Made by a program: the position numbers and the translations under genes. Shown here piece after piece: positions 3,502 to 64,000 of a stretch of DNA of 64,000 nucleotides. The stretch is taken from NCBI RefSeq assembly GCF_028389875.1, contig NC_084687.1, forward strand, positions 1,576,611 to 1,640,610, read 5' to 3'. The notes under the pieces are model-generated. The model did no database searches and was not told the origin of the DNA. It worked only from the letters and a program-made list of their open reading frames with translations. Within the stretch, counting starts at the first letter, position 1. Every line of letters starts with the position of its first letter. This DNA is from Rhea pennata. Taxonomy: Eukaryota > Chordata > Aves > Rheiformes > Rheidae.

Positions 3502-24354
<20,853 letters not shown>

Positions 24355-27675: not shown

Positions 27676-27840
27676 CTAATTCTCTGCCACCTCCAAGCCC
27701 AGGATCTTCTTGACATAGTTCTGGACATTGATGTGGAGCTGGGGGGCTGTAGCTGAGAAGGTCTCCATGGCCAGGGCCCGGGCTGACTCTGACCCACTCC
27801 ACATGGCGCGGTAGATGGGCAGAGTGTACTTCTGCTTCCC
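27676..27840 (-). CDS. RNPEP: RNPEP exon 11 (C-terminus)
   Basis: 165 nt including TAG. It reads [38 protein letters not shown] and [16 protein letters not shown]. Human has [19 protein letters not shown] in the same place. Acceptor TGTGTCTCACAG. Residues 575-628. Confidence 0.95.
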   Translation of the reverse strand, partial: GKQKYTLPIYRAMWSGSESARALAMETFSATAPQLHINVQNYVKKILGLEVAEN

Positions 27841-30800
27841 CTGTGAGACACAGTGAAGGTTAGATGTGAGTCTCCTCCCCAGCGTTCCAGCTGGGTGATG
27901 CCCCTGGGACCATAGCACAGCACCCCACTGCTGTCTCCAGATAGCCCAGCTCCTGCTGGCCCTTCACAGCTACCCTTGCCATGGCAGCTGGGTGTGGAAA
28001 GCAAGTACTAGAGGTTGGTGTGGGGCAGAGGGGTAGAGCTTGCTGTGGGGCTCTATGTTGCCCTCCAGGCAATGACAACTCCACCATCACTCATTCTTCA
28101 CCAGGCTGAGAGCACTGGAACAAGCCAGTACAAACATCCTGAGGCAGCCTCTCGCATGCAGTGCGTGGAGCATGGAGAAGCGAGAGAGCAGACCCGTTCC
28201 CTCCCAGCCCAGAGACACCTTTGTCCACTGCCTGTCTTTCCCAAGCTGTTGTCACCCTGACTGCCACTGCTAGACACAGCCACCACTGCCCCATGACCAA
28301 CCTGGCTGTGGAGGAAGTCCTTGACCTTGCTGTACTCGGACTCATGGTTGTTCTTCAGGACAATCTGGCACCAGCGGAGCCGCAGCTCGGCATTCTGGGC
28401 TTTGGAGATCTTTGGGTACATCTTGCTCAGCCTCTCCACATTGCCTGTGAGACAAATGGCATCAGTGCCAGCAAGCTCTGACAGGGCACTGGTGCCAACT
28501 CCCAGATCTCTGCTTAGAAAGGCCTCAGGGACCTGTGGTCCTCAGCATCCAGTCAGCCTCAGGCTCTCCCATGCCGCCCAGCACCTTCCAGTTCTACAGC
28601 AGTGCAGGTGCTCGCTGGCTAACTGAGTGCCCCGGCCACCCCAAGCGAGGCCATGCTGGGTCTTCTGGGCCCAGGCATACCTGCAGCCTTGCAGAGCCAC
28701 GTGCTTGGCTTGGAAGGCCAGCATGCAGGGTGAAGTCACTCGTAGGGTGCATGGAGAGGTGAATGCAGTCTTTGGGAACATGGGAAGGTGACATCATGGC
28801 TGAGCCAGCAAGGCTTCCCCTCCCCCCCCCCCCCCCCCCGCCACTATACACATGCCCTGCGGTGGCCAGGGAAATGCTTGCCCTTGCCCTGCTGCACAGA
28901 TTGAGACTTCCCAGACATGGAGTAACCTCACTGCTGGACTGCAGCAGGGACAGGCTGACTGATGAGCACCAACGTGTCCTGGTGAAACGCTCCTATCCCC
29001 AGCCAACTAGTCGGACCAGTGAGCATTCACCCATGATGCCACTGGGTACTGAAGCCCAGAGGTGACCTGGCCCTTACCTTCTGGCAGGGGCGATTTCTGC
29101 AGGATCTGATCCAGGAAGTAGACCAGCTGGTATGTCTTCCAGGCAGAGATGTCCACTGCTTCAATTGCCTCCATGTTCAAGCTATCGGCTGCCCAGAGTT
29201 TCGCCAGCTCATTTGCTGGCTTCATCAGCTGCTCCCCCGGTGAGAGGTCGGGCAAATAAGGGGGCCAGCCTGGCGTATTCAGCCAGCGATCAAACTCAAA
29301 GCCTGCAGTGAGGAAGGGAGGAAGAGCTGGCACCAGATTTCTGAACCGCACACCTGCAGCTACTGCCCAGACAAATGCAGCTTTCTCCAAGGACGCCCCA
29401 GTACTAACAACCCTGCTGAAGCTGGTAATGAACAGACAGACTAACAAGGTCAGGCTCCACCTCTCCAGGACTTGGCGCTCACTTTGCACTTGTGTAGTAA
29501 CAGCCCACCCCACCGCCTGTGAGAAGAGCCAGGCTCCAGTCCAGATGATAGCTTCTGCCGGGCCTGGATCTCAGTGACACCACATAGGGTAGAGCTGAAG
29601 ATCATGCAGCAGCTAAACCTGACCTCAGAGCCACTCAGTAGTGGCTTGGGTGACAACCCCGCACATCCTGGCACTAGAGACAAACTCCAGGGACAGCTCT
29701 TTGTAAGGAAACCCGAAGTGACAGCACCAAGCACAGCGTAAGCACTGGATTTACATGCAAAAAAAAATCAGACTAATCATATGAGTGACTGAGTCAGTGT
29801 TAGCCACTGGATCCTGGGCTGGCCAGATCTGCTCTGCTTCCAGTACAGTTGAGGTGTGCAGTAGGCAACAATGTCTTAAATAAGACCCATGGAGCTGGAC
29901 CAAGCATACAAAACAAACCTGCACACAGTCTCCAGCAAGGCCAGACCAGAATTAAAGGGAAGAAGAGGTCAGGGAGAGCCAGGCAGACAGAGCAACACTG
30001 AGTGGTAGCTCTTCAGCATCCCCAGAATCAGGCTCAGCAGAGTAAGTAAGTTCCTCACACTTGGCTGAGACATGAGAAAGCTGAGACCCACCAGGTGCTG
30101 GTTTGCAATGTGGTGCCATGGGCCTGCTGGCCAGGAGGCCCCCCCAGCCACCCTGTGCTGACCTGGCATGGAGTCCACGCCTTTCTTCTTCAGCTCCGGG
30201 AAGTACTCCAGGAAGAAGTCGAGGGTATCGTCTGCTGTGATGCTCTGGAACTTGAACTGGTTCACATAGGCCTGCAGGGAAAGCACAGGGAGCAATGCTG
30301 CACAAACTCACCACCTCACACCATGCCAGCCTGCGCTCGACAGCCCTCCTTCTGCTCCAGCTCACTTGGAGACCTTCTGGGCTCAGGGGAAGCTTGATGA
30401 AGCTAATTCATTTCCATGCCCTGCCCACACTGGTCTCCATTTGCCCCCCAGGGAACTCCCTAGCCCTGCATCCTGTTGGGAAGTCTCCAAACTCCACCAC
30501 CATCTGCTGCCAGTGCATGCTGAGCTCACCCCTAATCTCAATCCTCACTGAGCATCCCTGTTTCCCATGTTCTGTTCCTCTCATCAGCCACCCTGATCAG
30601 CCTCCTTTCTTCCTGAGGGTCCCGTTGCCTCCTTGTTCCTCTGCAGAGTTTTGCATTACTTGGCACCTCCACCAGCCCCAGTTTACCGCCAGCACGCTGG
30701 CAGAACCTTCTGCGCCAGGCACAGCAGATCTCCCTCAATGCACACTGCCCATGTACCTACCTGGAGGAAGGCATCGAACTTGCTTTGGTCCCCCACGAGG

Positions 30801-33800
30801 TGTGCCAAGTAGCTCACAAAGCAGTACCCCTTCTCATAGGGAGTTTCATTGTACGTGTCATCGGGGTTGACACCTGGCAGGCCAAAAAGACAGACACTTT
30901 GAGAGAAAAATCTGCCATTCTGCAAGACAAACAGCCCTTGCACTGAGACTTCCACTTCCTGTACACCAGATGCAAGGACCCTCTGAGAGGGACCAAAGAA
31001 GAAATGAAAGCTCTTCTGCAAGAGCGACTTCACTGATTCCAATGCCATCCCATGGGCCTCCCCCAGAAACACATTTAGGCATCCGCAGAGCACAGCCTTT
31101 CAGGTGTTCAGCACTCCACAGCAGTCAGCAGCTTCCACAGGAGGGTGCTTAAAGAGACCAGGAAACTTATTTTGTTCATTGGCAACATCTCAGTGTACAA
31201 GCTGGGCACTAGGAGTACGAGAGGAATGTCTCCAGCCCTCTCCCATCAAATTCCAGGAAACAGGAAGCTAGAATGCCCAGAGCAGCAAGATGATGGCAGG
31301 CTATCGGTGTGCAGAGCACAGCCCTGTCATACCGCTCCCAGTTATCACTGTGCTCAGTTCCCACAACCACAGCTGGTTTTATTCCAAGACATTAGCTCTC
31401 TGAAACACACCAGCGGTAGGACCTTCCCTCAACACGTGTCATGACAGCCTGTCTGCCCCTGCACCATCAGGTCAGGTGTCAGAGGACAGGGACACCCCAC
31501 AAACCTGGCTCGATTATCACCCGGAGCTTGTTTAGCGGATGATTCTCTCCAGTATTGTCCATGTGCTGGCGCAGCAGGGCCCTTCCCGTTGCAGCCTCCA
31601 GGCAAGTGTATGCAGAACCTGGGCAAAGACAAGCAGAAGGCACTTGGAGACCCCAAGGCACTTTATGTTGGCATCTGCCTTGGTGTCTGCCTTGGGCTCG
31701 TAAGAAAATGGAACAGGTGCTGCTACAGGAGTGAAAAAGCACTAATTTATTACTAGCTTGAAACGCAGGAAACAGCAGTTGCTGGGCCAGTTCTTCCCAT
31801 CATTGAACAACAGGACAGGAATAACAGGCATTTATTTGGAGCTGTAGAGAGGCACAGCAAACCAGTCCTTAGCAAGATTTTAGAGCCACCAGTTACACTG
31901 ACAGGTGAATTCACAGAATCACAGAATGGTTGAGGTTGGAAGGGACCTCTGGAGATCATCTAGTCCAAATGCCCTGCTCAAGCAGGGTCACCTACAGCAT
32001 GTTAAACAGGACCATGTCCAGGCACATTTTGACTCAATAGACAGCCCTGAGTAGTGTCTGTTAGATGTGACCCCTGTGTCCATCTCTGGGCTCCTGGTAT
32101 TGGCTCCTGTAGTCAGCTGGGAGAAGAAAAGAAATGCGGTAAGACTGGGTAAAAATCACTGCTCCCCTGCCCAGCAGGGCTCCACCTCCCTCCTAACAGG
32201 GATGTTGTGGCTCCACCCATTCCTCTGAGAGGAGGTTGTTTTGTCACTAAAAACAAGAAACCCCAGGTGCCCTGCAGACTGCTACTCTTCTGACTTTTAG
32301 TACGTATGGCCCCAGGTTTAGCGCTAAGAAGGATGTGCTGAGCAGCAGAACATGGATCCCAAAAGCGTGCTGTCCAGGGGGACAACAGAGCTCTACCCAC
32401 AACAGCAAGACCATACACAGGGACTCCGTGCTTTGCGTCAGGACAGAGGCCGGGCAAGGCCACGCACCGTAGACCTCAGTGGAAATCCGCCTCTGTGCAT
32501 ACATGGTGAAGCCCTCGTTCAGCCAGAACTCGCCCCATGTGGCATTAGTGACCAGGTTGCCAAACCAGCTGTGAGAGATCTCGTGGATGATGACATCCAC
32601 CAGGGAACGGTCCCCGGCCAGCAGGCAGGGTGTCACAAAGGTGATGCAGGGGTTCTCCATCCCACCAAAGGGGAACGAGGGCGGCATGAATAGGATGTCG
32701 TACCTGGCAGGGAAGAGCAGACGGCTTGGTACAGACCCACTTCTTCCTGCAGATATGGCCCAGAGACTGAGGGACGCTCCCTCCCCAGCCCCAAAGGAAC
32801 AAGACTTATCAAGAACAAGAAGCCATACCTGCCCCAAACATAGGGTCCAAAAAGCTTCTCTCCAACTGCCAGGAACTCCTCAATCACCCCGTCATATTCC
32901 TTCTTAGCAGCCTCGATCAGGCAAGGCTCAGCCCAGACTCGGCTCCTGCGGAGACCAACAGAGCTCACACCTCGCAAAGGAAGGGAATCTGTACAGACCC
33001 CATGGAGAAGTAGCAGCTTAGGGGCAATATTTGGTCCCATTGACCAACATCACTCCGCCAGGGAAACCTCTGGAGAATAGAGCAGTGTGCATCTGCATCT
33101 CCTCGCCATGCCCTTATCAGCACATTGCATCACCATCAGCAGAAGGCAGCTGGGAGCACTCTGCAGTCCCAGAGGACCCAATCTGTCAAACACCTTGTAG
33201 GGGAGAGACCACAAGTCAGAGTCCTTCTGCAACTGATGTGTTTGGTCAAGCGTGGAAAGAGGAAGTTTTAATCATCAGTTGACTTTTACCCTATTGCTTC
33301 ATCAGGCAATAATTGCAAGTTTATTCCACTACAAAATAAAAGCCCGGTGATAGATGAATCTAATGAGACAGTACAACTGCTGTAATTTCTTTCCTTGTCT
33401 GAACATCAAGGGTCTTTTACATAGTCACCAAAATGGCCAGGAACCCCGAATAAACCAACTGACCTTGGGAAGAGATTGTGGACTGTCCTTGAACAGACAC
33501 ATGCTGCTTTCATTCACATGCCCAAGAAAGAAATGAGCACTTCCAGGGACTCACTCAAGGGAGAACAGAATTGAGCACAAAGATTCCCGCAGAGCTGATC
33601 TGAGACTCCTCTGCACTCTTAAGAGCAAAGAACACTCTCACCCAGGCAGAGCTCATGGTCTGGTAACACACTGCTCAGCACCACAGATGCAGCAGGCAGG
33701 AAGACTGACTGGTTTACACTTACTGTCAGCATCCTGATAGGCCTGTCTATTCCAGGCGAGCTCACAAGTGCAGGGAGAGGCAGGCAGCACACAGCTGCCA

Positions 33801-36800
33801 TGGGACAGCACAGAGCACAGGAGACCATGTAGTTTCACCATCATTCACAAGGCAGTAGCTCCTACAACCAGGACTCAACACTCATCTCTTCTACAGCTAC
33901 TTACCTTGGGCCAACTTCAGCAGAAACAATGTCCCCAACAGCCAGAGCGATCAGGTAGGAGGGGATTGGCTGGGACATCTTAAAGATGAAGGTGTTATCC
34001 TTCTCCTGTTTCTCCCAGGTGGTGGCACTCATCACAGCTGTGAAACCTTCAGGGACCTAGGAATGTAGGTAAGAGTCTCTATCAGGTCTGTAATGTGCAA
34101 GGAGATTTTAGCTAACCCAACTGGGGTGGTACAGTGTGTCCTTCTGGAGCCCACTTCAGGCCAGCCAAGCTGCTTGCAAATGTTTCTTAAACATTGCAGT
34201 GTTTGGGATATAGCAAAAGTGGTCAGACTTCTCCGAGTGGCAACACAGAGGCACGGGGCATCCCCCTCCGGATTAGCACCAAACACAACCATGTCACAGC
34301 ACAGTGAATTTGTCCAGGGCCTGCCAAACCTATCTGCATGAGTTTTACTGTGCTCAGCCACCACCTGATGCCACACACACTCAAACCCTTCCATGTTACA
34401 GCCAGTCAGCCCTTCTCCGTACAGTCAGCCCACAGCTCTGACACTGCCAGATTTTAAGGGCCCGGGGTAGAGCAGTGAAGAACAGAGCATTGACTCTGGA
34501 TTGCAGCTGTGTCCCCAACTCCCAGGACAGCCACAGAGGTTGGGGGCACTCAGCACTTCATTAACTCAGGCTCAAACATCTGCCTAGTATAACACAGTGA
34601 GGATGTAACACTCCAGAGTCACTTGAGCAGTCTTATAGGGTTGGCCTTTGCCAGAAGACAAGCAAAGAGCTAGAGAATGGCTGGAATTAAAGATGTAAGA
34701 TGATGAAAGGATGAAGGATGTAAATTCTTCAGAAACTGCTTCTCGTGCCATTGCTTATGCAAGAACTTACTTTCCCGGTTTGTCAGTCCAAAGCTAACTC
34801 TGCACTTGATCCTCTAGCCTGTGCTGAGTAAGACAGATGACTTCTCTGTAGCTCTCAGTTGGGCTCGCTGGATTTTGCCTTATAAGACAGGGAAACTAAG
34901 CTGGTCTCTTCCCTTCCAAGAGCTGAGCCCCAAAAGGGTCCCAGAGAACAAGATTTCCTTCATGCAGACCATCATGTCAGAGTTTTACAGTAGCTGAACC
35001 CTGCGCTCACTCTTCAGGAGGGAGCTTTGCTGACTTGAGGGAAGAAGTCAGAGCAAAAGACATAACAGACTCCCACATCATCAGCCTATGCCTTTCTGTG
35101 AGAGGTCAGCCCTGGCCTGCTGTCACACCTGAAAGCAGCATCCCTAGCCTGTGGCAGACGGGCACAACGTGAATGCACGGTAACAGTCCATCTGCAGCAC
35201 TGCTGATGCCACTGGGTGGCTGCACATGGAGGGGACAGACAGAAACTCCACAGCCAGACACACTACCTTATCACCAACATATCTCCCTGCTGCTCAATTA
35301 CCTGCCTGCTCTCTACCATCCCACAAACCAGGAATCAGGCTTCCTGTAAGTGGCACCTCTGCGGCAACACAAGGGACTTGCCAAGAAAGCAGGTGACCTG
35401 TCCTTATCTCATCGCAATTCCTCCAGCATAGAGAAGACAGCCGAGCAGGCAGGCTGAGAGTAAACGCTGCACAGAACACACCAAGCAGCAAACAGCTGAG
35501 ACTCATCAGCTTCTTTCTGTCGTGATCAAAAGACAGGAGGAATATTTTTGAGGTACCTTCTCCCCCTTCCCCTAAAAAAAGGAAGTAGGTTGTCCACACT
35601 AGGAGATCCACAGCAACTCTGAATGAATGAAACCGTTACCCCTTGAGAGGCATTGCATGAAATCCCAGAACCCCAATGGGAAGAGAAATCAGGATTTCTG
35701 TTTATGTTAAACAACACCTGAGGACCAATAACTGGTTCTCAGTTTCCACATCATTAGTCAGTGACTCTCAGGGTTCTGGAAGCCTGGCATCGCCCTACAA
35801 AACCATCAGGACATGGCATCTCCCTGTGTCACCATCCTCAGTTACTAAAGCCGTACCTGAACTTCAGCTCAGAACCTAGATCTTCAAAGTCATCCTCAAG
35901 CTTCTCCACGTGCCAAAAATAAAAAAGCATCCTGCTACCTCTGAGGTAAAACTGGGTTTGCTGTCACGGTTATTTAGAAGACACATGCATCAATATGAGG
36001 AGACCAGGCAGAAGTTTAAAACCAACCATGTTAATTCCAATTGCCAAGTGATATCTTTGGTTCAAGTACCAAACATTTCAGCAACCTCCCACGTTGAAGC
36101 AAAAAACTTTCAATGCAACACCCTGCATGCCTTGCGTGTGCATCCTCTTTCCAGTGATTACACAAACCAGCATCCATCACACATAGTTGGGAAGGATGGG
36201 GGAATCGGGAGAGAAGCTTTTCATCCACTTATCTTTAAAAACAGAATCAAACCCAAATATTTTCTAGTGTCTTCTTCGCTTGGGGCCCTTAGCAGAGTAT
36301 CATTTCAAGTATGTGGCCATAACTCCGTACAGGAATAAAAGTCTGGGCAGTGTCTTTGAATCAAGAAGCAACACCCAAACGTTTCAGTGTGTCCAGTGTG
36401 TACTGTGACAGACCTGGCAGCTTCCTGCTTTCCCTTTTAAAGATGTTAAAACCAGGACAAACTTGATGAGGTTTTTGCTCTTGATAAACTCACAGAGGTG
36501 GCTGAATTTGTACCCACATGTCTTTCTCGGGGTACTGCTTACCTTCACTGTGGCTGAATATGTACATTTAACTGCTGGAGTGTCAAAGCCAGGGAAAAAG
36601 GATCTATTCAGGACGGCCTGGCCTTGAGTGTACAAATAGGGCTTCTGCTTCCCTGCTGTCTGCTCGGGAGTGAGCCAACACACCTGACGAGAGACAAGAG
36701 ACAGCTTTGTGTGAGGGTGGGAGACTTTACCTGAATCCTTGCAGAATAGGTGCTCTTTGCTGCTGGAGTGTGAAAGCCAGGGAAAAAGGACCTGTTGAGC

Positions 36801-38920
36801 ACAGGAAAGCCAGAAGTATAAAGGAAAGGCTTCTCCTTCTGGGCAGTTTGGAAAGAGTCCAGCCAGGACATCTGCAGCACAGGCAGAATAAGGAGAACAA
36901 TCAATAAAGTCATATGAGACAGTGAGATTTAACTCAGTTACCAGAAGCACATATGAAAGTTGAAGGACAGCTCAATACCCAAGCTGTTTCCCTCTGGAAA
37001 AGAAACATGAATCACCTGAAAAAAACAGGGTGCGCTGCCCTCCGACAGACAACCGGGCACAAAGGCACCTTTCTCGACACTTCCCAGGTGGGCTCTGCAG
37101 ATGGGACAGTCCAGGTCCCAGACAGCAGAGTCACTGTTCTAGATGAAAAAATGCCCTCGTGTTGGCAGAACATGCTTAACCCCAGAGTGATGCCGCTCTA
37201 GCTCCGCTGACGTATTTCAACCAGAGCCGCCTGATTTTTCCTGGAGAAATTCACCTTGCTAACTTACAGGCAACTTTGGACTGATGAAGCCTGCCCTTTG
37301 GAGAACAGCCTACACCAAGGCCTTGTCTACAATAAAAAGATTGCTAGCTTAGCAATATCCACATAGAGGCCTTGGATACATGCGACTTATCGCTACTCAA
37401 TAAGATATGTCAGCAAAGATTTTTTTTTTTGCATGTACAGCTGTATCAGTGCTGAGTCAGGACCAGCACTTGTACACCAGCAGCGATAAAACTCAAACTG
37501 CGAACACAAACAGCCACAACTGGCAAGTTTTCAGCACAACGTGCAAGTGGCTGCAGCAACTATTTGAAAATCAGAGTAAGCACTAAGCCTGGAAAAAGAA
37601 GGTGTTTAGGGCTCAACTCTTGAGGTCACCTGTCTCATCAGGAAGCTCAAATTTGGAGCAGGGTGGCAAAGATCACATCTGCCTCAAAGCAGCCTGCAAT
37701 CTTCAGCTCTTGTGATAAGTCACAGGACCAAATGCCAGTGGTCAAAGCGGTCAGTTGCTTCTCTAAACTGCAGGTTTAGAGGCCTGCCCCGGTTTCGGTC
37801 ACGCTCCACTGGGCTTGCGCTGCCTCAGGAGTTTTGCTTCCCCTCAGAAAACGCGGCAGGAGGAAAGACACGGGAAGCACAGAGTGAAGCAGCCCTGCGC
37901 CTCTCTCCCTGCAGCCAGGGAACGGCTCCTAGCCGGCTCCCAGAGACGGACAGACGCTCCACCACCGCTCTCCCTCCCTCGACGGCGCCGCGAGACCGAA
38001 CCGCTGAAACAAGACCGGGAAGGACAAGGACCGAGGCCGGGCAGCCGCCAGGACGCGCTCCGACTGGGGCCGCCCTCGAGTGCGCTCAGACACAGCCGTT
38101 GCGGGTCCCACAGCGGCGTGGCAGCGGGGTCGGAGACGGGGACCGGGACCAGCTCCGGCGCTCCCCAGAGAGAGACCGGGAAGCCCCGGTACATGGCTGC
38201 CACCAGCCCGACCACTGCCCCCTCGGCCGGCTGCCCCGCCCCCGCTGCCCTCTCGCCGATGCCCCGCCCCCTCCTCTGATGCCCCGCCCCCTCGGCCGCT
38301 GCCCCGGCCCCGCTGTCCTATCGCCTGATGCCCCGCCCCCTCCTCTGATGCCCCGCCCCTCGGCCGCTGCCCCCTCGCCTGATGCCCCGCCCCCTCGGCC
38401 GCTGCCCCGGCCCCGCTGTCCTATCGCCTGATGCCCCGCCCCCTCCTCTGATGCCCCACCCCCTCGACCGGTGCCTCCGCCCCCCCCCGCCCTCAGCCAC
38501 TGCCCCCCTCTGGCCCTGCCCCCGGTTCCCGCCGCCGCCGCCGCTCACCCCGGGCCCCTCGCCCGCCTCGTAGTCGACCTCGACGGCGAGGAGCTGCCCA
38601 CCGCGCAGGGGCTCGGGCAGGGCGATGTGGAGCGCGGAGCCGTAGCTGGCGAAGGGGCGGCTCTCGAAGGGCAGCGGGCGCGGGTCGGCGCCGGCGGGCG
38701 GCAGCAGCGCGGCGCGCCGCACGGCCAGGCTGGGGTGCGCGTCCAGCACCAGGGCGGCGGCGCCGTCGCGCGCGCAGCGCAGCTCCAGCCGCGCCGCGCC
38801 ACGCAGCCGCCCCGCGCCCGCCGCCGCGAAAGCCACGCGCAGCGCCAGGTGCACGTGCCGCAGCTCGAAGGAGTCCGCGCTGCACGCGGAGGCCGCGTCC
38901 CGCGCCGCCGCCGCCGCCAT
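27676..38920 (-). CDS. RNPEP: RNPEP, aminopeptidase B, complete (11 coding exons, join)
   Basis: Aminopeptidase B is a secreted or vesicular M1 zinc exopeptidase. It removes N-terminal Arg/Lys, for example in prohormone maturation. Exons in transcript order: 38920-38549, 36683-36543, 34056-33905, 32945-32829, 32703-32468, 31618-31505, 30873-30761, 30271-30163, 29302-29078, 28444-28302, 27840-27676. All phases join, giving 628 residues (human 650; the difference is mostly the N-terminus). Seen: exopeptidase motif GGMEN (274-278), zinc motif HEISH (301-305), third ligand Glu324 in LNEG, catalytic Tyr390 in PYEKG, and a C-terminal helical domain from about 450. The start ATG has G at -3 and +4. 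An alternative second exon (36871-36731) is described separately. It is distinguished from LTA4H and RNPEPL1 by close identity to human RNPEP throughout. Head-to-head with NAV1 across a CpG island. Confidence 0.96.
28302..28444 (-). CDS. RNPEP: RNPEP exon 10
   Basis: 143 nt, phase 1 in and 0 out. It reads [38 protein letters not shown] and KVKDFLHSQ. It is part of the C-terminal armadillo-like helical domain. L-R-L-R-W matches the family's basic C-terminal patch. Donor CAG|GTTGGT. Confidence 0.95.
28822..28840. repeat. Poly-C run
   Basis: About 18 C in a row between RNPEP exons 9 and 10. It is simple sequence that can form a G-quadruplex on the minus (transcribed RNA) strand. Confidence 0.85.
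29078..29302 (-). CDS. RNPEP: RNPEP exon 9
   Basis: 225 nt, phase 1/1. It reads [57 protein letters not shown] and [17 protein letters not shown]. It opens the C-terminal domain and is near-identical to human. Acceptor TCCTTCCTCACTGCAG, donor AAG|GTAAGG. Confidence 0.96.
30163..30271 (-). CDS. RNPEP: RNPEP exon 8
   Basis: 109 nt, phase 0 in and 1 out. It reads [19 protein letters not shown], then [17 protein letters not shown]. Human has AYVHEFKFRSILADDFLDF. It is the end of the catalytic domain. Donor CCAG|GTCAGC. Confidence 0.95.
30761..30873 (-). CDS. RNPEP: RNPEP exon 7 (catalytic Tyr)
   Basis: 113 nt, phase 1 in and 0 out. It reads [37 protein letters not shown]. The Tyr of P-Y-E-K-G (Tyr390) corresponds to catalytic Tyr383 of LTA4H. 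Acceptor GGCCTGCCAG, donor CAG|GTAGGT. Confidence 0.96.
31505..31618 (-). CDS. RNPEP: RNPEP exon 6
   Basis: 114 nt, phase 1/1. It reads [37 protein letters not shown]. The donor CAG|GTTTGT is non-consensus at +3 and +4. The joined frame G-V-N-P-D-D matches human G-V-D-P-D-D, so it is the right junction. Confidence 0.94.
31909..32030 (-). mobile_element. Short CR1 3' end in RNPEP intron 5
   Basis: Begins on the plus strand with the reversed terminal repeat (TTCACAGAATCACAGAATGG), then TTGAGGTTGGAAGGGACCTC and CTGGAGATCATCTAGTCCAA. This is a classic avian CR1 3' terminus, 5'-truncated to roughly 120 nt. The well-preserved sequence suggests a younger copy than that at 825. The inner end is approximate. 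Confidence 0.93.
32468..32703 (-). CDS. RNPEP: RNPEP exon 5 (zinc site)
   Basis: 236 nt, phase 2 in and 1 out. It carries G-G-M-E-N (substrate N-terminus recognition), H-E-I-S-H (two zinc ligands and the general base) and Glu324 in W-L-N-E-G-F-T, 19 residues after the second zinc-binding His. All catalytic residues are intact. The sequence is almost identical to human from [14 protein letters not shown] to MYAQRRIST. Confidence 0.97.
32829..32945 (-). CDS. RNPEP: RNPEP exon 4
   Basis: 117 nt, phase 2/2. It reads [19 protein letters not shown], then [19 protein letters not shown]. Human has [19 protein letters not shown]. Acceptor GGTCTCCGCAG, donor GCAG|GTATGG. Confidence 0.96.
33905..34056 (-). 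CDS. RNPEP: RNPEP exon 3
   Basis: 152 nt, phase 0 in and 2 out. It reads [38 protein letters not shown] and [12 protein letters not shown]. It is the end of the N-terminal beta-saddle domain and joins in phase to either version of exon 2. Acceptor CATTCCTAG, donor AAG|GTAAGT. Confidence 0.95.
34057..36542 (-). other. RNPEP intron 2
   Basis: About 2.5 kb with no recognisable coding exon, CR1 copy or RNA gene. Scattered short open frames show no family similarity. Confidence 0.6.
36543..36683 (-). CDS. RNPEP: RNPEP exon 2 (canonical copy, 2a)
   Basis: 141 nt, phase 0/0. It reads [19 protein letters not shown], then [19 protein letters not shown] and KCTYSATVK. Human has VCWLAPEQTAGKKKPFVYT and [19 protein letters not shown], so this is the orthologous exon (residues 125-171). 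Q-G-Q-A aligns with LTA4H Gln134-Ala137, which line the substrate pocket. Acceptor TCTCTTGTCTCTCGTCAG, donor AAG|GTAAGC. Confidence 0.96.
36731..36871 (-). CDS. RNPEP: RNPEP alternative exon 2 (tandem duplicate, 2b)
   Basis: A second exon-2-like unit lies upstream of 2a in transcript order. It is exactly 141 nt, phase 0/0 and has no stop. It reads [19 protein letters not shown], then [19 protein letters not shown] and KSTYSARIQ. It shares 30 of 47 residues with 2a. Its acceptor (CTTATTCTGCCTGTGCTGCAG) and donor (CAG|GTAAAG) are both strong. Only 47 nt separate it from 2a. Differences fall on pocket residues: Q144S, Q146F, A147P and D158H. The intact frame, equal length and good sites argue for a used, mutually exclusive exon rather than debris. 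No transcript evidence is available here. Confidence 0.8.
36951..38258 (-). other. RNPEP intron 1, gene-free part
   Basis: No exon recognised between exon 2b and the GC-box minisatellite. The 5' part (above about 37,900) is CpG-rich and belongs to the promoter island. The rest is ordinary sequence. Confidence 0.55.
38258..38468. repeat. GC-box minisatellite in RNPEP intron 1
   Basis: The word GATGCCCCGCCCCCTC recurs seven times with small changes, starting at 38258, 38278, 38327, 38347, 38381, 38430 and 38450. The 38278, 38327 and 38347 copies repeat 103 nt later, so a 103-bp higher-order unit is present about twice. Each copy contains an SP1/KLF-type GC box. Confidence 0.9.
38549..38920 (-). 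CDS. RNPEP: RNPEP exon 1
   Basis: 372 nt coding, 124 residues. It starts [20 protein letters not shown], then [17 protein letters not shown] and ends [12 protein letters not shown]. Human shows SASNFRAFELLHLHLDLRA and YRVGEGPG at the same places. The open frame runs upstream of this ATG without a stop. This ATG is chosen because it gives family-like length and sits in a good context (G at -3, G at +4). The exon is extremely GC-rich. Donor CCCGG|GGTGAGC region, cut after 38549. Confidence 0.9.
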
Positions 38921-57387: not shown

Positions 57388-58080
57388 ATCACAGAATCAC
57401 AGAATGGTTGAGGTTGGAAGGGACCTCCGGAGATCATCTAGTCCCAACCCCCTACTCAAGCAGTGTCACCTACAGCACGTTGCATGGGATCCTGTCCAGG
57501 CGGGTTTTGAATATCTCCAGAGGAAACTCCACAACCTCTCTGAGCAACCTGTTCCAGTGCACTGAAAAGAATCCAGCCTCATCCCCTTGACACCCTCCCT
57601 CAAGGTATTTGTAGACATTGATAAGATCCCCCCTCAGGCTTCTCTTCTCCAGGCTAAACAGGCCCAGCTCTCACAGCCTTTCCTCATATGGAAGATGCTC
57701 CAGGCCTCTAATCATCTTCATAGCCCTACACTAGACTCTCTCCAGTAGTTCCATGTCTTTCTTGTACTGTGGAGCCCAGAACTGGACACAGTACTCCAGA
57801 CGAGGCCTCCCTAGGGCTGAGTAGAGGGGCAGGATCACCTGCCTCAACCTGTTGGCAACACTTCCTAATGCACCCCAGGATACCATTGGCCTTCTTGGCT
57901 ACAAGAGCACACTGCTGGCTCATGGTGAGCTTGCTGTCCACCAGAACTCCCAGGTCCTTCTCTGCAGAGCTGCTTTCCAGCAGGTCAGCCCCTAGCTTTA
58001 CTGGTGCATGGCGTTATTCCTCCCTAAGCGCAAGAACCTGCACTTGCCTTTGCTGAATTTCATGGCTGCAACCCGGCTCA
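57388..58080 (-). mobile_element. CR1 LINE copy, about 690 bp, 5'-truncated
   Basis: The plus strand starts with the reversed CR1 end ATCACAGAATCACAGAATGG, then GGTTGGAAGGGACCTCCGGA. It continues through CAGGCTAAACAGGCCCAGCT, TTCTTGTACTGTGGAGCCCA and CCACCAGAACTCCCAGGTCC to CTGAATTTCATGGCTGCAAC. It is a well-preserved, relatively young copy with 3' UTR and the end of the RT region, 5'-truncated as is usual for LINEs. It shows the same order of phrases as the old copy at 825. Confidence 0.96.
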
Positions 58081-61046: not shown

Positions 61047-63772
61047 GTGAGCGGGGCCAGCGGGGGTTTTTTTTGGGGGGGGGTACAAGATTGGGGGGGG
61101 CAGACGGTGGCGCTGGAGGCGGGAGCGGGCGGCCGGGGAGCGGGACTGAAGGGACTGAGGCTGGGGGTGGATGGGGGGGCTCTCCCGGGGGGCACGTCTG
61201 GCGACATTGCCCCCCACCCTGGCCAAATTCCCCCCCCCAACCCTGCTCTGCCCCCAGGCTGCAGGAGGACGCTGAGCCAGCGGCGCCGCTGCGTGACGAG
61301 CGGGTCAGTCCTGCGGAGGGGCCTGAGCCCGGAGGCCGGAGTGAGTCTGTGGGGGGAGGGTGGGGGTGCTGCCTTTTTTTGGGGGGGGAGGGAAGCGGTT
61401 TGGGAGGGATCCCCTGCGCCATCCACCGCTGGAGGTGTCGGCTCCAGGGTTGGAGGGACAGGCGGGTCCTCCCGGGGCGGCCGCCGGCCCGGGCTCCCTC
61501 CCTGCTGCGCCGTCTGGAGGGCTCCTTCCCAGGAAAACCGTCGTCTCCCCCCCCCACCTCACCCCCCTCCATCCGAGGGAACAATAACACGCAGCCCCCC
61601 GACACGCGCCCACGGAGTCCGGCACTGTGGTCCGGCCGGCGGGATTTTCCCAGGAAGCTCCGGCCTCGCAGCCAGAGACGCGCGGAGGAGTTGGCCGGCT
61701 CCGCAGCCCGTCCTCGCCAGCGAAGCCTCCCGGCGATCGCGGCTGCTGGGGGGGTCCCCTGCGCCCCGGCGGCGCTCAGCGCTGCATGTCCCGCTGGCGG
61801 GGAGCAGCTCGCACCGCTTCCCCCTCCTTGGAGGGGTCACGTCGGCCCTTGCAAAATCCTCCAAACTTGGGGGGCAAAATCTCCCAGCTGCATTTTGCAG
61901 CTCGGCCTTTTGGCGCCCCGTTATTCAGGGGCTCCGGGCTGCTTCCCGGCACCGCCGTCGGGGAAGGAGGAGGCGGGAGAGCGGAGGAAACACGGGCTCG
62001 CTCCGGCGCCGCTTCGGGCTGGCCGCAGTCGTGCCCGGTGGGCCCCGGGCAACGGGGCCGCAGCCGTGGGGCTCGCTCGACCCTGCCTCCTCCTTATCTT
62101 CGCAGCGTAGTAACGCGCTCTAATGCAATATTTTCCGTCGGTTGCCATGGCAGCGCGCGTGAGGTCACCAAATAGACTTAATTCCCCCCCTCCCGAGGGA
62201 GGGATAATTAATGAAAAATGATGATAACCAGATCCCACCTCCCCCCCCTTTATTTCCCCTCCCCGCCCCCACTCCCCGGGGCCAGGGGTGCACTGGGTAC
62301 TGAACGTCAAGGCCTTGCTGTCCCAGCGGGTGGGAGGTGGCGGCCAGGTAGCAGGGTGCTTGGCACGCTGGGTGCTGCGGGCTGCACGGCCAGGGCACAT
62401 CCCGACCCGCCGGCTGCAGCCAAATCCCACCCGAGACAGCACTGGGGCACTGGAGCCCCCCTCCCAAAAAACCGTGAGCAGCCACGCTGCAGGCAGCTTG
62501 CCAGCTTGCACCGTCACCTAACCCTGGGGCCCTGCACGGCTCCGCCGCTCCGGGCGTCCCTCTCGGCTCTAGCTGCCCCCACAGGCTCCCGCTGCCCCCC
62601 CCCCCGCCTCCCCCGGCCCGTTCTCTGCGCCCCGGCGGTGCTCGGCGCTGCACGTCTCACCGGCGGGGGGGCGGAGCGCGCCCGAGCCCCGCCCCGCGGC
62701 GGCGGGTGCCCCCTTCCCCTCCCCACCCCGCCCCTCTCCTCGCCGCCGCGTGCCGCGGGCGCGCGCGCCGCGCCCCGCCCCCTGCCCGCGCCAGCCGGGC
62801 GCGGAGGAGGGCGGGCCCTTTTTGTTTGCCCCTGACATTCCGCTGGTTCGCAGTGTCCCGCCGGCGGCGGAGCAGCGAGGTGGGGCCGCTGCGCTCCGCT
62901 GCCCTCCGCTGCGGTGGGGGCGGGCGCTCACGGCGCTTCTCTCTCTGTCTCTCTCCCTGTCTCTCTCCCTGTCTCGACCGGTGTCCTCGGTGCCGCAGCA
63001 ACCGCAACAGCAGCAGCAACAGCAGCCGCCGCCGCCGCCACCAGCGGGTTAAATGATTCCAGCGCGGGGATGCTGGGGAGCAACCTCAAGAGCCTTCCCG
63101 ACGTGGAGCTGGGCGAGGAGGGCGCGGCGGAGCTGCGCGGCTACCGGCGGGGGCCCGACGGCGGCGCGGTGATGCCGAAGCGGGCCAAGGCGGCGGCGGC
63201 GGGGCCGCGGGGCGCCGAGCTGCGCGTCTTCAAGGCGGGCAGCGCCGAGGGCCGCCTGCCGGGGGGCTCCAACCTGCGCAAGCAGAAGTCGCTCACCAAC
63301 CTCGCCTTCCTCACGGACGCCGAGAAGAAGCGGCAGCTCTACGAGCCCCGTTGGAGCGACGACATGGCCAAGCCGGCGACAACGACAACGGCGGCGGCGG
63401 GGGGCCGCGGCGGCCCCCGCGCCCGCGAGGCGCCCGCCATGTCGCGCAGCCTGTCCCGCTCCGAGCACTCGCTGCTGCCGCCGCGCCCCGCCGCCGCCGC
63501 CGCCGCCAAGGCGCCGCCCGCCGCCGCCGCCGCCGCCGCCGGCAAGCCCAGCCGCATCCCCCGCGGGCCCTACGCCGAGGTGAAGCCGCTCAGCAAGGCC
63601 CCCGAGGCGGGCGGCAGCGGCGGCGACGGCAAGTGCGATGACGAGCTGCTGTGCGGGAAGGGCAAGGCGGCGGCGCCGGGCGCCGAGGAGAAGCCCTACC
63701 TCAAGGTGGACCCCGAGCTGGTGGTGACGGTGCTGGGCGACCTGGAGCAGCTCCTCTTCAGCCAGATGCTGG
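60757..63772 (+). CDS. NAV1: NAV1, 5' part (alternative N-termini; gene continues beyond window)
   Basis: Neuron navigator 1 is a microtubule plus-end-associated protein with a C-terminal AAA ATPase-like domain, acting in neuronal migration and axon guidance. Only its 5' end is here. Two beginnings are visible. One uses exons 60729-61046 and 61258-61340 (ATG 60757). The other starts in the exon at 63070-63772. Both end in phase 1, so both can join the same downstream exon (human D-P-E-S-Q-R-K). The AAA domain and coiled coils lie outside the window. Confidence 0.85.
61258..61340 (+). CDS. NAV1: NAV1 upstream exon, next
   Basis: Acceptor CCTGCTCTGCCCCCAG. It continues the frame as R-LQEDAEPAAPLRDERVSP, AEGPEPGGR. 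NAV2 has YRSQTDTEG here. Two donors are possible: GG|GTCAGT after 61303 (phase 0) and GGA|GTGAGT after 61340 (phase 1). The second is chosen because its phase equals that of the 63772 donor, so both transcripts could share the next exon. Confidence 0.6.
61341..63069 (+). other. NAV1 intron / internal promoter region
   Basis: GC-rich. Holds an RFX X-box-like site (62141-62154), a homeodomain-type AATTAATGA word near 62207 and GC boxes. The pyrimidine tract CTCTCTGTCTCTCTCCCTGT (from 62941) leads to a possible acceptor CCGCAG at 62993-62998, so the 63070 exon might also be entered by splicing. No further coding exon recognised. Confidence 0.5.
62141..62154. promoter_or_regulatory. RFX X-box-like palindrome
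   Basis: GTTGCCATGGCAGC differs at one position from the symmetric RFX site GTTGCCATGGCAAC. It lies about 0.9 kb upstream of the NAV1 start at 63070, followed by a TGAGGTCA nuclear-receptor-type half-site (62160-62167). Confidence 0.5.
63070..63772 (+). CDS. NAV1: NAV1 classical first coding exon
   Basis: 703 nt coding, 234 residues, ending phase 1 at CAG ATG CTG G|GTGAGT. It starts MLGSNLKSLPDVELGEEG. Conserved blocks against human NAV1: NLRKQKSLTNLAFLTDAEKK, YEPRWSDDMAKP, GKPSRIPRGPYAEVKPLSK and KVDPELVVTVLGDLEQLLF followed by SQM. Between them lie poly-Ala stretches encoded by (GCC)n near 63480-63545. The frame is open upstream of the ATG to at least 62941. This ATG is chosen by identity with human MLGSSVKS. 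It has no closing stop in the window because it continues over an intron. Confidence 0.95.
63480..63545. repeat. (GCC)n / poly-alanine coding repeat in NAV1
   Basis: Runs of GCC encode two alanine stretches (about 6 and 7 Ala, interrupted by K-A-P-P). Human NAV1 has a non-repetitive linker here, so it is probably a slippage expansion typical of GC-rich avian exons. Confidence 0.8.
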
Positions 63773-64000
63773 GTGAGTGTGGGGCAGCCTCGCCGACGCG
63801 GTGGTGGCGGGAGGGAAGCCGAGGCTCCGGCCGCCCTCCTTCGCGGGCGTCCCCCCCTCTTGGGGGACCGGCGGCCTCCACGCCCCTCGCTCGGGCTGCC
63901 GCTGCCTCCGCTCCGTTTTCCCAGCCCGGAGGCGAGCTGCGTGGGAGCCATGGCTTCGCTCGGAGCCGGAGGACTCCTTGGCTTGTGGTGGGGCAAACCA

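Follow-up and report, generated by a model that had tools for sequence, protein, structure and literature searches.

A probable pair of mutually exclusive homologous exons in the aminopeptidase B gene RNPEP of Rhea pennata

In the 64,000-nt stretch of Rhea pennata DNA analyzed here (the window, to whose positions coordinates refer), the minus strand carries a complete RNPEP gene, encoding aminopeptidase B, in which exon 2 occurs in two adjacent versions, 2a and 2b. These exons are tandem homologues of common origin, and their features point, with reasonable though by no means full assurance, to a mutually exclusive pair whose alternative use would swap part of the substrate site. Aminopeptidase B removes basic residues from peptide N-termini and converts glucagon to miniglucagon (PMC2241622). 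If the pair is used in this way, one gene would yield enzymes of differing specificity by means of a swapped substrate-contact segment.

Two homologous versions of exon 2

Exon 2a (36731..36871, minus strand) and exon 2b (36543..36683, minus strand) each span 141 nt, are open, begin and end in phase 0, preserve the reading frame, and are bordered by intact AG and GT splice sites. Between them lies an intron of 47 nt (36684..36730, minus strand). At the protein level the two exons agree in 30 of 47 residues, and at the DNA level in 91 of 141 bases; their local alignment score of 47.0 was reached by none of 300 shuffles, which averaged 8.8 +/- 1.4. When the RNPEP exons, whose borders follow the open frames, the splice signals, and what is known of the protein, are joined with either 2a or 2b, the result is a protein of 628 residues with no internal stop. 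Recounting confirmed the coordinates, lengths, open frames, borders, and shared residues reported in the first-pass annotation of this DNA, and its claim of a tandem duplication with both copies intact is upheld by the alignment score and the complete 628-residue frames. Its description of the copies as interchangeable holds insofar as either exon completes the frame; in the biochemical sense it is not supported, as 2a lacks both Q-x-Q-A and the DTP aspartate discussed below. An assembly error is hardly credible as the source of the duplication: we found no point in its support, a region entered twice by the assembler would not be expected to carry 50 differences in 141 positions, and the RNPEP gene is otherwise complete.

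The flanks of the two exons are dissimilar (ungapped identity 13/46 and 16/47), and the 47-nt intron shows no similarity beyond chance to the 200 nt upstream of 2a or downstream of 2b: 63% and 78% of 300 shuffles, respectively, scored at least as high. If the flanks never belonged to the duplicated unit, their dissimilarity is uninformative on its age. When all 12 exons, both versions of exon 2 included, were compared with the window by blast at E <= 0.1, the other repeats consisted of exon 1, itself rich in G+C, matching G+C-rich stretches, and of single weak hits for exon 5 (E 0.015) and exon 11 (E 0.025).

A separate observation concerns 16 nt in the last part of 2b (36550-36565), which recur with 15 of 16 bases matching at 36498-36513, in the intron downstream and at a distance of 52 nt; 1.3% of 300 shuffles reached this score. 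This is perhaps the trace of another short duplication.

The family-typical version

In a search against solved structures, exon 2b matched leukotriene-A4 hydrolase (LTA4H) with 46.3 bits (E 1.9e-11) and exon 2a with about 19.5 bits (E 0.01). The top structure match of 2a was a cold-active aminopeptidase (30.2 bits), a protein on which 2b scores 44.3 bits. Exon 2 encodes residues 125-171, within the Peptidase_M1_N match at residues 36-206, and on this Pfam domain isoform 2b scores 50.9 bits and isoform 2a 37.0, both above the cut-off of 25.8. Peptidase_M1_N, Peptidase_M1, and Leuk-A4-hydro_C are matched in both isoforms, and in isoform 2b they lie above the Pfam cut-offs; the zinc motifs GxMEN and HExxH...E are present in the latter as GGMEN, HEISH, and WLNEGF. 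The NCBIfam model TIGR02411, leukotriene-A4 hydrolase, gives 518.5 bits with 2b and 490.5 with 2a, both below its threshold of 761.7, which would suit a protein on the aminopeptidase B side of the LTA4H/aminopeptidase B subfamily.

Given its higher LTA4H, Peptidase_M1_N, and TIGR02411 scores, 2b is the family-typical exon and 2a a derived extra. The opposite assignment, with 2a as the family-typical exon, is rejected on the structure matches. It had been proposed that human RNPEP holds the 2a version; this is most likely reversed, since 2b fits the family better, and we take human exon 2 to be of the QGQAVLNR type, like 2b.

Residues exchanged at the substrate site

By alignment, residues 20, 22, and 23 of exon 2b correspond to LTA4H residues 134, 136, and 137 (1gw6_A numbering). 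In LTA4H the Gln136 side chain is turned to the catalytic zinc, and a bound tripeptide directs its N-terminal Arg at this residue (PMC9177663), which is also among the frequent inhibitor-contact residues (PMC7356593). The earlier view of exon 2 as an active-site-lining segment is supported by the alignment of 2b residue 22 with an active-site Gln (PMC9177663). In 2a, Ser, Phe, and Pro stand at these three positions, with SGFP replacing QGQA, and the DTP of 2b reads HTP, an Asp-to-His change. Position 20 of exon 2 corresponds to human Gln169, which published mutants reportedly show to take part in substrate recognition; a literature search for this work gave no hit.

Four relatives were compared at this segment, namely human LTA4H, the cold-active aminopeptidase 3cia, 2xq0, which we take to be yeast LTA4H, and the bacterial locus L001. 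The Q-x-[QE]-A substrate-contact segment is found in 2b and in all four relatives, and is absent in 2a. L001 (2417-4294), one of three bacterial loci from a scan of genome contigs, encodes an aminopeptidase from Flavobacteriales, a relative of LTA4H/aminopeptidase B whose substrate segment reads QSQA; it matched residues 1-621 of the query, with 32% identity in the best segment. The comparison did not use the other two loci: L002 covers query residues 163-407, which take in 9 of the 47 residues of exon 2, and L003 covers 298-415. A query made of exon 2a and exon 3 found no relative in viral contigs. Exon 2a retains 10 of the 14 positions that are invariant in 2b and the four relatives, and we infer that a 2a enzyme would fold alike but bind the first residue of the substrate differently or hardly at all.

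Signs of past selection on exon 2a and a near-identical tract

The 50 differences between 2a and 2b fall 14, 9, and 27 on codon positions 1, 2, and 3, and Nei-Gojobori counting gives pS 0.765 and pN 0.232, or 0.99 and 0.28 once the ten codons of the tract described below are removed. These values were compared with simulations in which 2b was constrained (omega 0.05) and 2a drifted freely, a run being counted when its pS was no lower, and its pN no higher, than the observed values; of 3000 simulations run at each of eight divergences, no more than 0.2% qualified at any of them. A second grid combined kappa 2 and 4, omega of 0.05 and 0.2 on 2b, and a varied omega on 2a at five divergences, with 300 runs each, with and without the tract, and also with pS allowed to be 10% lower. 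Here the best divergence was chosen each time, which favors the null; even so, omega 1 on 2a matched in at most 1.3% of 300 runs. Selection, suggested in the first-pass annotation, thus appears as a signature of past coding selection in the codon-position bias and the simulations; these tests draw on one pair of sequences and speak to past rather than present-day selection.

The same results bear on the idea that 2a is plain duplication debris that was never used. Debris would suit its donor site, which scores lower than that of 2b, and yet full neutrality is matched as rarely as just stated, while neutral survival of the 2a frame, its AG and GT borders, and its length would have a probability of about 3e-5 at 0.5 substitutions per site, with indels assumed at one-tenth of substitutions. 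We consider this explanation very improbable.

The divergence is unevenly spread along the exon. At exon nucleotides 82-112 (36760..36790 in 2a and 36572..36602 in 2b, both on the minus strand), the copies differ at 1 of 31 positions, and the other 110 nt hold 49 differences. A 31-nt run with at most one mismatch arose in 0.02% of 20,000 permutations of the mismatch positions. Among the 29 codons that specify the same residue in both exons (Trp excluded), 14 are identical, and a run of nine identical ones arose in 0.3% of 200,000 permutations. The tract, a candidate for gene conversion, may stem from a recent event of this kind or from a constraint shared at the nucleotide level. Both exons encode FFPGF here, with Cys in place of Gly in two of the four relatives, human LTA4H and, presumably, yeast LTA4H; the Gly common to 2a and 2b fits gene conversion and shared constraint alike.

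Splicing geometry

In human clusters of mutually exclusive exons, a donor-to-branch-point distance of less than 50 nt is regarded as potential steric interference, a situation reported for 57 cases, or 9% (PMC5740500). The intron between 2a and 2b contains a single match to the yUnAy consensus, CTCAC, with its A at intron nucleotide 19, and an intron of 47 nt cannot hold a 50-nt distance between donor and branch point. On geometry alone, there is probably a steric barrier that blocks the joint inclusion of 2a and 2b. Retention of these 47 nt would shift the frame and lead to a stop at codon 212. The frame is kept when 2a and 2b are both skipped or both included, so exclusivity would rest on intron length and not on frame. 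RNA structure gave no sign of acting as a switch in the 369-nt region, where folding is little more stable than in shuffled sequence (z -0.40, with 36 of 100 shuffles equalling or exceeding its stability), and an Rfam scan of the whole window returned no family at its gathering score.

Inclusion of both exons in one transcript would give a 675-residue protein with the segment doubled, and the preserved frame, of 676 codons with the stop, would permit it. The intron is shorter than the steric threshold, and a second copy of exon 2 would be expected to break the Peptidase_M1_N domain, which leaves this outcome very improbable. We give equally little credence to 2a as an alternative first exon, even though it opens with ATG and its frame stays open for 19 codons upstream (36872-36928, minus strand), with another ATG within. 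Those codons are probably the pyrimidine-rich acceptor region read as protein. The start context, CAG/ATGT (the slash marks the exon border), is poor, and the border of 2a falls where 2b has its own, behind an AG acceptor preceded by matches to the branch-point consensus. The product would also be without the first part of the N-terminal domain. A long open reading frame at 36950-36384 is read in the 2b frame rather than the 2a frame and lends this explanation no support.

Weighing the mutually exclusive pair

If 2a and 2b are indeed mutually exclusive, joining of exon 1 to 2b would yield the usual aminopeptidase B, and joining of exon 1 to 2a, with exon 3 following at once, would yield an enzyme of equal length in which the loop that holds the N-terminal residue of the substrate is altered, carrying SGFP for QGQA, and HTP replaces DTP. 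A transcript running 1-2a-2b-3 would not form. The 2a form would then be expected either to differ in its specificity for the N-terminal residue or to be a poor peptidase that serves as a modulator, and a short, recent exchange between 2a and 2b, by gene conversion, might have evened out the 31-nt stretch.

Several points weigh against this reading. The branch point in the intron between 2a and 2b is a candidate only, being a consensus match, and some few vertebrate introns of about 45 nt do get spliced. The donor of 2a scores 7.6 and that of 2b 11.2 on the matrix used, the former ranking seventh among the 11 donors of the gene. Exon 2a is without the invariant G11, Q20, A23, and D34 (position 11 being a gap in 2xq0), a loss that also fits decay. 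In the second grid of simulations, partial relaxation of 2a fits more often than full neutrality, with omega 0.7 matching in up to 7% of runs and omega 0.5 in up to 22%, and 2a may be weakly constrained or lately abandoned.

The last two points are those on which another explanation draws, namely that 2a is a former alternative exon, long functional, whose use was lately lost and which remains open by inertia. The missing substrate-site residues, invariant in 2b and the four relatives, and the fit of omega 0.5 would both suit such a history. On the other side, 2a has acquired neither a stop nor a change in length, both of its splice sites are present, and the barely diverged 31-nt stretch points to recent exchange or constraint. 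We regard a recent loss of use as unlikely, though deserving of attention, and retain the mutually exclusive pair as the probable reading. A fuller scenario, which we offer tentatively and with some doubt, is that an old duplication has been kept in the lineage, that two forms of aminopeptidase B arise by a loop swap, that 2a confers a new specificity or acts as a silent regulator, and that conversion is ongoing.

The remaining exons and other features of the window

Exon 1 (38549..38920) begins with ATG, comprises 124 codons in an open frame, and ends in phase 0 at a GGG/GTGAGC donor. Downstream of the exon 2 pair, and likewise on the minus strand, reading frames and splice sites place exon 3 at 33905..34056, exon 4 at 32829..32945, exon 5, with the zinc-site motifs GGMEN and HEISH, at 32468..32703, exon 6 at 31505..31618, exon 7 at 30761..30873, exon 8 at 30163..30271, exon 9 at 29078..29302, exon 10 at 28302..28444, and exon 11, which carries the stop codon, at 27676..27840. 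Intron 1 contains a G+C-rich tandem repeat array (38215-38506), with overlapping unit calls that include 49, 68, and 103 nt.

Elsewhere in the window, three stretches gave no Pfam match at 0.01. An open frame on the plus strand at 62836-63999, containing MLGSNLKSLPDVELGEEG...SNLRKQKSLTNLAFLTDAEKKRQLYEPRW, resembles the first coding exon of NAV1. A protein-like fragment on the minus strand at 57729-58013 resembles the end of a CR1 retrotransposon frame, as would fit a sauropsid, and a 78-residue open stretch on the plus strand at 15054-15287 looks like part of a BTB-domain protein.

Comparison with known systems

No description of an RNPEP exon duplication was found among the titles and abstract beginnings of the matches listed, with subscription papers and database gene models outside this scope, so that the pair may be annotated elsewhere. 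RNPEP is not mentioned in the main text of PMC5740500, PMC9741552, or PMC4465641, and the combination of RNPEP, alternative splicing, and birds led to one paper, which speaks of RNPEPL1 in chicken (PMC11657628).

Within peptidase family M1, isoform 2b shares GGMEN, HEISHSW, Q-x-Q-A, and Leuk-A4-hydro_C with the LTA4H/aminopeptidase B subfamily, and isoform 2a departs from it in having neither Q-x-Q-A nor the Asp of DTP. A close parallel in arrangement is OGDH, where exons 4a and 4b likewise stand in tandem in an enzyme gene and a branch point less than about 50 nt from the donor hinders double splicing (PMC7969005). The OGDH intron, with distant branch points, measures 118-131 nt in birds and mammals (PMC7969005), whereas the entire RNPEP intron has 47 nt; the OGDH exons alter calcium sensitivity (PMC7969005), and the RNPEP pair would alter substrate-contact residues. 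Exclusivity in OGDH was established by experiment (PMC7969005), whereas the RNPEP pair is known here from its sequence.

Human tandem duplicated exon substitutions such as those of KHK, ACOX1, and PKM resemble RNPEP in that homologous segments are swapped within one enzyme (PMC9741552). Human swapped homologous exons mostly retain their ligand-contact residues (PMC9741552), and RNPEP 2a differs from them in its loss of Q-x-Q-A. The RNPEP pair is thus a candidate addition to the mutually exclusive homologous exons, and would be an unusual one, since it is the substrate-contact residues that are swapped.
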